Shown here one piece after another: positions 1-1,800 of a stretch of DNA of 34,686 nt (its first letter is position 1; each line of letters starts with the position of its first letter). The notes beneath the pieces are model-generated. The model did not search any database. It was not told where the DNA came from and was given only the letters and a program-made list of their open reading frames with translations. Position numbers and translations under genes: made by a program. Source of the stretch: an uncultured Pelagibacteraceae bacterium (GTDB taxonomy: Bacteria > Pseudomonadota > Alphaproteobacteria > Pelagibacterales > Pelagibacteraceae); contig CACLSS010000010.1 of NCBI GenBank assembly GCA_902609645.1, positions 1 to 34,686 on the forward strand, given 5' to 3'.

Positions 1-238
1 TGTGGGTATCTGTTTTGGTTTCAAAAACATCCGGCAGAGATGAGAAAAAAGATGGCCAACCAGAGCCACTTTCGTACTTCATTGTTGAACTAAAAAGTTT
101 TACTCCACACCCAGCGCAATGATAATCCCCTTCCCTTTTTTCCTGATTTAAGTGGCTAGATCCAGGGGCTTCTGTACCTTCTTCTTTTAAAATATAATTT
201 TGCTCAGGAGTTAAATCACTGTTCCATTTATTGCTCAT
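1..238 (-). CDS. msrB: Peptide methionine-R-sulfoxide reductase MsrB, truncated by the window edge
   Basis: Reduces methionine-R-sulfoxide in proteins, a cytosolic oxidative-repair enzyme. I translated the reverse strand from ATG at 238. The 79 residues visible match the MsrB N-terminal half: LTPEQ near residue 9, GTEAPGSSHLN near 21-31, KREGDYHCAGCG near 34-45 and YESGSGWPSFF near 55-65. C41 and C44 are the first zinc-binding CxxC pair. The second CxxC and the catalytic cysteine lie beyond base 1. No Shine-Dalgarno sequence precedes the ATG, and a TATAAT box ends only 8 nt upstream, so the message may be leaderless. It is divergent from metY. Family assignment is secure; completeness of the gene cannot be judged. 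Confidence 0.93.
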   Translation of the reverse strand, partial: MSNKWNSDLTPEQNYILKEEGTEAPGSSHLNQEKREGDYHCAGCGVKLFSSTMKYESGSGWPSFFSSLPDVFETKTDTH

Positions 239-288: not shown

Positions 289-318
289 TTGACTTTGTCA
301 TGTTAAATCTAATATAAT
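289..318 (+). promoter_or_regulatory. Promoter of metY
   Basis: A -35 hexamer TTGACT (289-294) and a perfect -10 TATAAT (313-318) are separated by 18 bp, matching the sigma-70 consensus well. The predicted start near 324-326 falls 2-4 nt before the first base of the SAM-II aptamer helix at 328, so the transcript would begin with the riboswitch. Confidence 0.75.
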
Positions 319-327
319 TTCAAAATT

Positions 328-378
328 AGCGCTGATTTAAGACAAATTGCGAGCGCTTTAAAAAATCCGCTAAAGCGT
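328..378 (+). promoter_or_regulatory. SAM-II riboswitch aptamer upstream of metY
   Basis: The element begins AGCGCTGATTTAA, contains ATTGCGAGCGCT and ends with CCGCTAAA, matching what I remember of the SAM-II consensus (P1, the GAUUUAA loop, the GCUAAA 3' segment). P1 is AGCGCT 328-333 paired with AGCGCT 352-357. A pseudoknot is possible between GCG 349-351 and CGC 368-370. It lies directly downstream of a good promoter, directly upstream of an intrinsic terminator, and in front of a homocysteine synthesis gene. SAM-II binds S-adenosylmethionine and lowers expression when methionine/SAM is plentiful. A covariance-model scan against the Rfam SAM-II model would settle it. Confidence 0.85.
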
Positions 379-391
379 TAGATCTTTCGAG

Positions 392-420
392 ACCACCGCT
401 TTAGTCGGTGGTTTTTTTTT
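392..420 (+). terminator. Intrinsic terminator in the metY leader
   Basis: ACCACCG (392-398) pairs with CGGTGGT (406-412) around the 7-nt loop CTTTAGT, followed by an unbroken run of T from 412 to 420. This is a textbook Rho-independent terminator placed between the two SAM aptamers and 84 nt before the metY ATG, so it can only act as a regulatory attenuator. Bases 397-404 (CGCTTTAG) are an exact reverse complement of 370-377 in the SAM-II element, which gives a plausible antiterminator helix. Confidence 0.85.
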
Positions 421-442
421 GAAATAGTCTCAAATTAAAACC

Positions 443-497
443 GGGCATTTGAACTGTATTGTACGCCTGACATTTCGTCGAAGTACTAAAAAAGGAG
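443..497 (+). promoter_or_regulatory. SAM-V riboswitch aptamer covering the metY ribosome binding site
   Basis: The segment starting GGCATTTGAACTGTATTGTACGCC and ending GTACTAAAAAAGGAG closely resembles the SAM-V element known from Pelagibacter leaders (recalled, not searched). GGC 444-446 can pair with GCC 465-467 (P1). GTAC 461-464 can pair with GTAC 483-486 as the pseudoknot. GAC 469-471 and GTC 477-479 can form a small extra hairpin around ATTTC. The Shine-Dalgarno AAGGAG (492-497) sits immediately after the conserved CTAAAA, 7 nt before the metY ATG, so ligand binding would be expected to block translation initiation. The Rfam SAM_V covariance model would confirm it. Confidence 0.85.
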
Positions 498-504
498 AAA
501 AAAA

Positions 505-1800
505 ATGGGAAATAAAATAAAAAATCCAGAAACTATAGGTTTGCATGGAGGAGAATATAGAAGTGATCCTGCTACTACATCGGTAGCGGTTCCAATATAT
601 CAAACGACTTCATATCAATTTAAAGATACAAAAACAGCAGCAAACTTGTTTGCATTAAAAGAGTTTGGAAATATTTACACAAGAATAAATAATCCAACTT
701 GCGATATTCTAGAAAAAAGAGTCGCGGCACTTGAGGGTGGATTAGCTGCGGTAGCAGTTGGTTCAGGTCAAGCTGCCTCTGCATTCTGCGTTCAAAATGT
801 TTGTCAGGCTGGAGATAATATTGTCTCTTCAACTGACTTATATGGTGGAACAGTAAATCTTTTTAAAAATACTTTACGTATGCAAGGTATTGAAGTTAGA
901 TTTGCTGACCCTAAAGATCCTAAAAATTTTGAAAAACTAACAGATGAAAAAACAAGAGCTTACTACGGTGAGTCTTGTCCAAATCCTTCTCTTAGAATTT
1001 TTCCAATTAAGGAAGTCGCGGACATTGGGAGGAAGCACGGTGTACCATTAATAATTGACAATACTGCAGCTCCAGTTATTTGCAGACCATTAGAACATGG
1101 CGCTGCTGTGGTAATGCACTCTTTAACAAAATATATTGGAGGACATGGAACAACAATTGGTGGAATTATTGTTGATGGAGGAAACTTTGATTGGGCAGCG
1201 AACCCTAAAAAGCAACCTTTGTTTAATGAACCAGACCCGAGTTACAACGGAGCAATCTGGGGAAGAGATGTTCCAAAAATGACAGGAGCAAATGTTGCGT
1301 TTGCGATAAGAGCCCGTGTTGTTTTACTTAGAGATCTTGGAGCACCACTATCACCTTTCAACGCTTTCCAAATAATTCAAGGATTAGAAACTGTGGCTAT
1401 AAGAATGAAGCAACACTGTGCTAACGCAGAAAAAGTTGTTAAGTTTTTAGAGACACAAAAGAAAGTTAAGAACGTGATTTATCCAACAAATCACCAAGGT
1501 GAAATAAGAGATAGAGCTAAAAGATATATGAAGGGTGGTTATGGTTCTTTAGTTGGAATGGACTTAGGTAGTTTAGAGGCTGGGTCAAAATTCATAAACA
1601 ACCTTAAACTTTTATATCACGTTGCTAACATTGGAGATGCGAGAAGTTTAGCTATACATCCTGCATCTACTACTCATGGTCAGCTAAACGAAAAACAATT
1701 AGCTGAGGCTGGGGTTACACCTGGATATGTAAGACTTTCTATCGGTATTGAACATCCTGATGATATTATTGCCGATATCGAACAGGCATTAGCAGCATAA
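505..1800 (+). CDS. metY: O-acetylhomoserine sulfhydrylase (O-acetylhomoserine thiol-lyase)
   Basis: A cytosolic PLP enzyme of the Cys/Met-metabolism family that makes homocysteine from an activated homoserine and sulfide, the direct sulfhydrylation route to methionine. The 431 residues fit the MetY size class, longer than cystathionine gamma-synthase at about 390. Visible marks are the N-terminal LHGG and PIYQTTSYQF, the GSGQAASAF stretch, IIDNT before the active site, and K209 in HSLTKYIGGHGT as the Schiff-base lysine. The insert between about residues 225 and 260 is typical of O-acetylhomoserine enzymes. The ATG is fixed by AAGGAG 7 nt upstream inside the SAM-V element. Regulation appears to be at both transcription and translation through the leader. 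It is monocistronic up to the strong hairpin at 1812-1844. Confidence 0.93.
   Translation: MGNKIKNPETIGLHGGEYRSDPATTSVAVPIYQTTSYQFKDTKTAANLFALKEFGNIYTRINNPTCDILEKRVAALEGGLAAVAVGSGQAASAFCVQNVCQAGDNIVSSTDLYGGTVNLFKNTLRMQGIEVRFADPKDPKNFEKLTDEKTRAYYGESCPNPSLRIFPIKEVADIGRKHGVPLIIDNTAAPVICRPLEHGAAVVMHSLTKYIGGHGTTIGGIIVDGGNFDWAANPKKQPLFNEPDPSYNGAIWGRDVPKMTGANVAFAIRARVVLLRDLGAPLSPFNAFQIIQGLETVAIRMKQHCANAEKVVKFLETQKKVKNVIYPTNHQGEIRDRAKRYMKGGYGSLVGMDLGSLEAGSKFINNLKLLYHVANIGDARSLAIHPASTTHGQLNEKQLAEAGVTPGYVRLSIGIEHPDDIIADIEQALAA

Follow-up and report, generated by a model that had tools for sequence, protein, structure and literature searches.

The metY leader in the window carries two RNA sensors for the same molecule before one gene, with a predicted stop to the making of the message and a predicted stop to its reading. 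The window is the whole analysed stretch of 34,686 nucleotides and corresponds to contig C10 in a SAR11-type assembly (897,699 bases, 82% complete). We consider it likely that this leader is a bi-mechanism SAM off-switch for metY, in which SAM-II acts on transcription and SAM-V acts on translation. SAR11 are abundant ocean cells with few regulators. Their methionine genes are described as largely under RNA sensors (PMC5069961). SAM-II, a terminator and SAM-V at the ribosome site of metY follow each other in the window, which is the tandem SAM-II/SAM-V arrangement as defined in PMC9481103. This architecture is already published, and the window adds a clean further case, in which metY is the gene and has a direct ribosome site. 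Of the parts described below, those that merit further attention are the antiterminator and the short-P1 element.

Parts of the metY leader and identity of the two aptamers

The leader and its neighbors contain the following features.

1 to 238, minus strand: SelR-domain gene (methionine sulfoxide reductase B-like) with divergent start, cut by the contig edge
289 to 294, plus strand: -35 box TTGACT, read from the sequence, conserved in 18 of 18 genus loci
313 to 318, plus strand: -10 box TATAAT, 18-nt spacer from the -35 box, SAM-II P1 about 10 nt downstream
319 to 393, plus strand: covariance-match span of the SAM-II (SAM_alpha, RF00521) aptamer, 29.8 bits, E 4.1e-5
328 to 357, plus strand: SAM-II P1 helix (328-333 with 352-357) enclosing L1, paired in 100% of cells across 35 distinct sequences
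367 to 378, plus strand: SAM-II 3' strand CCGCUAAAGCGU, SAM-binding GCUAAA and pseudoknot P2, or predicted 5' strand of the antiterminator
392 to 420, plus strand: intrinsic terminator, stem 392-398/406-412, loop CUUUAGU 399-405, T-run 412-420
397 to 408, plus strand: predicted antiterminator 3' strand CGCUUUAGUCGG, 397-404 with 370-377, 406-408 with 367-369, U405 bulged
434 to 500, plus strand: SAM-V (RF01826) aptamer, 72.5 bits, E 3.4e-10
494 to 497, plus strand: Shine-Dalgarno GGAG at the 3' end of SAM-V, 7 nt upstream of the ATG at 505
505 to 1800, plus strand: metY, O-acetylhomoserine sulfhydrylase, 431 aa, TIGR01326, 562 bits (cut-off 495.1)

An earlier sequence-only reading had proposed a promoter, a SAM-II-like fold, a 7-bp terminator with a T-run, a SAM-V-like fold and a Shine-Dalgarno 7 nt before the ATG of metY, and all of these parts were recovered. 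The promoter boxes and their 18-nt spacer are identical in 18 of 18 genus loci. Because P1 begins 10 nt past the -10 box, the transcription start probably lies no more than a few nt from P1. The terminator has a stem of 7 bp and a T-run of nine T. The SelR-domain gene shares its intergenic region with the metY promoter; it is divergent, on the minus strand, so the terminator does not belong to it. The open reading frame at 505-1800 matches O-acetylhomoserine aminocarboxypropyltransferase/cysteine synthase (TIGR01326), which is MetY.

The identity of SAM-V is beyond doubt, with 72.5 bits against the RF01826 gathering score of 41 and a full-length match (1-66) in the whole-window scan. SAM binding with exclusion of SAH is reported for the SAM-V RNAs of HTCC1062 metY and bhmT (PMC6061858). 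The SAM-II match had 29.8 bits when 4227 families were searched against 291 nt, which is under the RF00521 gathering score of 36, a threshold set by curation rather than a feature of the structure. The expectation that covariance models would recognize both aptamers thus held for SAM-V above its gathering score, and for SAM-II only below it. For this reason a default Rfam scan lists SAM-V alone, and a permissive scan of the 291 nt was needed to detect SAM-II. Searched across its own genome, the SAM-II of the window had E 3.1e-5 and the next-best place reached 14.6 bits. RF01726 likewise matches the region, with 23.3 bits. GibS and the remaining families of the permissive scan were rejected as chance matches, their scores lying far under the cut-offs.

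P1, the GAUUU third strand and the AUUGC and GCUAAA strands stand in pseudoknot order, as is characteristic of SAM-II, and L1 of the window consists of the GAUUU third strand and the AAAUUGC strand of P2. P2a is weak: it is formed by A342-U378 and C343-G377, and the A-U pair is missing in four of 18 genus loci, which read GCGA. The RNA fold of 322-425 is only mildly stabler than shuffles (z -1.83), so the case stands on homology and conservation. The bhmT SAM-II of HTCC1062 (L073) is likewise unlisted by the Rfam scan at E 0.5, and its KD for SAM is given as 1.2 uM (PMC5069961, citing Poiata 2009). By its E value in its own genome and the constant order of parts in 18 of 18 genus loci, the SAM-II-type aptamer of the window is real despite the sub-threshold score.

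Proposed choice between antiterminator and terminator

The strand CCGCUAAAGCG (367-377) is complementary to CGCUUUAG-CGG (397-408) and forms with it a duplex of 11 pairs (-15.3 kcal/mol). Its partner is composed of the end of the terminator 5' arm, the loop and the start of the 3' arm. As modeled, the SAM-binding strand can therefore serve the SAM-II pseudoknot or the antiterminator, and the two pairings are mutually exclusive.

We propose that at low SAM the strand 367-377 would pair with 397-408 as the latter emerges, so that the terminator would come too late and read-through would occur. At high SAM the same strand would be captured by the SAM-II pseudoknot, the terminator (392-412) would close and transcription would stop in the T-run. 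Transcripts that escape would carry SAM-V, whose SAM-bound fold would hold the Shine-Dalgarno at 494-497 and block translation of metY. SAM binding by both aptamers, and the dependence of termination and translation on SAM, are what we infer from these parts.

The antiterminator pairing was present in 95.6% of cells among 35 distinct leaders, against 20-51% when the partners were slid by 1-3 columns; for the former figure the register at 405-408 differed slightly. Of 500 random loops of local composition put in place of the terminator loop, no more than 2 paired as strongly in 34 of the 35 distinct leaders; the exception was L129, with 30 of 500. Covariation of the antiterminator was sought in these leaders and not found, since 147 of 500 shuffles reached the observed count of double changes. 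The strand is near-invariant because the SAM site constrains it, and therefore covariation cannot prove this pairing. Outside the tandem set, six of 12 distinct SAM-II leaders had at most 15 of 300 random loops as strong, and one had 121.

The predicted order of folds during transcription was followed in window transcripts starting at 316, in calculations that ignore pseudoknots and kinetics. With ends at 380-395, the SAM-binding strand was instead predicted to pair locally with 353-361, in a hairpin that is mostly kept among relatives (93.9% of cells). The antiterminator was the minimum-energy fold at ends 405, 408, 410 and 412, and the terminator was the minimum-energy fold at ends 416 and 420. 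Without SAM, the complete 316-420 RNA already favored the terminator (-26.0 kcal/mol) over the antiterminator (-24.5 kcal/mol), which means that the ON state has to be kinetic and depend on timing. L1 contains another local hairpin (GAUUU/AAAUU and three outer pairs); it was 98.9% paired and showed a double change from U-A to G-C in 10 of 35 leaders. This hairpin would be the closed, SAM-free form of the loop.

Conservation among relatives and comparison with the bhmT tandem

SAM-V was found in 18 of 31 genomes of the genus, only two of which are at least 90% complete. The order of promoter, SAM-II, terminator, SAM-V and metY was constant in 18 of 18 genus loci. In alignment A1, which holds the 35 distinct SAM-II-to-terminator stretches out of 37 loci, P1 pairing was complete (100% of cells) and included two pairs with double changes, and the terminator was paired in 97.6% of cells. 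The exact genus SAM-II core occurred in 21 Pelagibacteraceae stretches of genome contigs, all 21 with the terminator; in 19 of them SAM-V and metY followed. One SAM-V core pattern had no exact match in viral contigs.

In the other two stretches (L154, L159) SAM-II and the terminator stand directly 5' of a BhmT-like gene without SAM-V, which means that the first module can stand alone. The gene of L159 belongs to the homocysteine S-methyltransferase family (PF02574), and that of L154 begins with a near-identical protein. A GGAG follows immediately after the T-run in both. The earlier assignment of the first aptamer to transcription control is strengthened by this standalone module together with the conserved antiterminator.

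Poiata et al. 2009 is reportedly the primary report of the SAM-II/SAM-V tandem. The precedent in Pelagibacter that the earlier reading had named is indeed on record, as the pair at bhmT of HTCC1062 (PMC2704228, PMC5069961); in the former paper, metY and mmuM are listed with SAM-V. PMC9481103 counts 149 SAM-II/SAM-V tandems, with predicted control of transcription and then of translation. Under sulfur limitation, expression of metY (mRNA and protein), mmuM and bhmT went up in HTCC1062 (PMC5069961).

The bhmT tandem of HTCC1062 resembles the window in having SAM-II, a terminator with a T-run, SAM-V and the antiterminator complementarity: its CCUGCUAAAGCG is complementary to CGCUUUAG(A)CAGG (-17.0 kcal/mol). 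According to PMC11508383, the SAM-II domain of this tandem answers SAM when alone and hardly does so in the full-length RNA. Its authors traced the loss of response to the linker, described the cause of the lost binding as not understood, and noted a predicted hairpin ahead of poly(U); the words terminator and antiterminator are absent from the main text. We suggest that in the complete RNA the linker would compete with the pseudoknot for the SAM-II strand, and that SAM-II would decide only before the linker emerges. The antiterminator is thus a concrete candidate cause of the apparent inactivity of SAM-II in full-length RNA. Overall the two-stage-filter reading is supported; the non-response of the bhmT SAM-II (PMC11508383) counts against a simple form of it and calls for caution.

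That non-response also bears on the possibility of a relic first aptamer, with the terminator as a constant attenuator and SAM-V as the sole responder to SAM, which we think improbable. The SAM-II score under the Rfam cut-off, the folding of the complete leader into the terminator without SAM, the little SAM-II response of the full-length RNA in the literature (PMC11508383) and the change of GAUUU to GAGUU, which affects 11 of the 37 related leaders and is confined to genus g6, would agree with a relic. However, the RNA that failed to respond was complete, so that its linker was already able to compete. A relic is also at odds with the GAUUU, AAUUGC and GCUAAA strands, which are intact in 18 of 18 genus loci, with the retention of P1 and the antiterminator, and with the occurrence of SAM-II and terminator without SAM-V 5' of a BhmT-like gene. 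It is quite improbable that the loop of an intact terminator contacts the SAM-II strand and modulates SAM binding more than termination: such contact is sterically conceivable, as C397 and G398 are the sole 5'-arm bases that the helix 370-377/397-404 would use, but the best duplex includes 406-408 of the 3' arm, and the antiterminator is the predicted best fold at transcript ends 405-412. That the SAM-II-like match and the complementarity arose by chance in A+T-rich DNA is hardly credible, for the low z-score of the 322-425 fold against shuffles is outweighed by the E value in its own genome, its presence in 18 of 18 genus loci, the double changes in P1, and a core, P1 and terminator conserved across 35 distinct leaders.

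Besides the proposed SAM off-switch at metY, leaders with SAM-II and a terminator without SAM-V share the same core followed by a terminator with the window, whereas their complementarity between loop and strand is weaker. The published HTCC1062 case of SAM-II without SAM-V is metX (PMC2704228).

The 11 leaders with GAGUU as third strand (L115, L117-L120, L122-L124, L126, L128, L130) are 11 of 11 g6 SAM-V loci surveyed, and the facing AAAUUGC has become AACUUGC in 10 of them. By our alignment with SAM-V (PMC6061858), the changed U pairs with the base that holds the adenine of SAM, so the ligand specificity of the g6 SAM-II may have changed. L076 has a complete tandem leader, and an ATG-started open reading frame of 120 aa was not found within about 260 nt downstream. 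It is perhaps an orphan leader left after gene loss.

The window differs from the bhmT leader in its ribosome site. At metY of the window the SAM-V GGAG lies directly before the ATG, whereas the bhmT gene starts 70 nt past the GGAG with a CUCC strand between. In 14 leaders (L073, L089, L104, L115-L120, L122, L123, L126, L129, L130) the SAM-V GGAG is not the ribosome site of the gene, which starts 65-94 nt past it. Pairing of the CUCC-type strand with the SAM-V GGAG strand passed the shuffle control in 14 of 14, and pairing with the next downstream GGAG passed in only five of 14. On these pairings the arrangement looks like a decoy relay, which the window lacks, unlike these 14 relatives. In the metY leaders L115, L119, L120, L126 and L130 what the next GGAG precedes is not metY but a short open reading frame upstream of it. 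PF02574 was found for the genes of L073, L104 and L117; the other BhmT-like genes of this set were named by similar N-termini, and the L129 gene had no Pfam match.

A short-P1 SAM-II-like element before SAM-V

We surveyed 101 SAM-V loci, namely the 18 of the genus and 83 of 85 matches in 148 genomes of the order, the other two matches being genus loci. By pattern, 37 of the 101 have SAM-II and a terminator. Sixty have a short-P1 element directly before SAM-V, in the form GCC-GAUUUGAUCCUAUUGC-G-GGC ... GCUAAAAnGGA. The 60 copies comprise 50 before metY, nine before mmuM and one before a metY whose assembled sequence has a frame shift close to its start. Four loci have neither: L136 in HTCC1062, before an OsmC-like gene, and L137-L139 before metY.

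P1 and P2 of the short-P1 element were paired in 94.7% of cells among 57 distinct copies, against 33-61% when slid. Double changes occurred in three pairs, one of which is a doubtful fourth P1 pair holding in only 28 of 57. The GAUUU, AUUGC and GCUAAA strands were invariant across the 57 copies. A terminator hairpin with a T-run between the element and SAM-V was seen in none of the copies inspected. Rfam models alone gave low scores, all below cut-off: RF00521 was the best family for the HTCC1062 metY copy (G041:C1:1005758-1005831) with 16.3 bits, and the L057 copy had 18.1 bits for SAM-V, 16.0 for RF00521 and 13.5 for RF01726. We take G041 to be HTCC1062, since its SAM-V places lie within intergenic regions that PMC2704228 gives for HTCC1062.

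Model R2 was made from 23 SAM-II aptamers, the window included (alignment A4: 21 of the 35 tandem aptamers and two others). It matched 57 of 57 short-P1 copies as its top 57 (E 4.6e-5 to 0.31, over 120 kb), and its next match, with 10.1 bits, lay inside SAM-V itself. Conversely, model R1 was made from the short-P1 element. It found 60 places in the 148 genomes, every one of them overlapping a SAM-V match at its 5' edge and belonging to a single genus that includes HTCC1062. Since the copies behind R1 were SAM-V-linked and the model extends into the first SAM-V bases, this linkage is in part built in. In 27 other sources, of which 23 have a SAM-II aptamer, 10 of the 12 R1 matches with E of at most 1 fell on SAM-II aptamers (10 of the 23, E 0.006 to 0.27), and the two further matches were not SAM-II. 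Against the window, R1 did not find the window's own SAM-II. On these matches and the shared strands, the short-P1 element is very probably a SAM-II-class aptamer unannotated by Rfam.

The 5' strand of the element, UGCCGAUUU, is also able to form a helix with AAAUCGGUA, which lies immediately 5' of SAM-V; 87.5% of cells were paired, compared with 20-47% when the partners were slid. This helix had no double change and is therefore only a lead.

We think it reasonably likely that SAM-V is almost never alone in SAR11, with 97 of 101 loci being double sensors and with two mechanistically different tandem designs for metY. The second design, in metY and mmuM leaders of Pelagibacter proper, would place a further SAM-II-class aptamer, short in P1 and lacking a terminator, directly 5' of SAM-V; the 5' strand of this aptamer would alternatively pair with bases abutting SAM-V P1.

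The metY leader of HTCC1062 has the same gene and the same SAM-V class as the window. It is listed with SAM-V only in PMC2704228, whereas the short-P1 element adjoins SAM-V on its 5' side; a terminator was looked for in this leader and not found. The 53-nt SAM-V crystal RNA was taken from it (PMC6061858). No description of the short-P1 element at metY or mmuM was found in the available texts of PMC11508383, PMC2704228, PMC9481103, PMC5069961, PMC6061858, PMC8632094 and PMC4239095, a scope that excludes the primary report and supplements. If the short-P1 element binds SAM, leaders that have been treated as single SAM-V, including that of HTCC1062 metY, would be double switches and would deserve re-measurement with their natural 5' end.

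Among the four loci with neither upstream element, the metY leaders L137-L139 have weaker SAM-V matches (52-57 bits). L136 (801-865, minus strand) is a fourth SAM-V match in HTCC1062, with 57.6 bits, before the OsmC-like gene and without a SAM-II-like element; osmC is named among the genes downstream of SAM riboswitches in PMC5069961.
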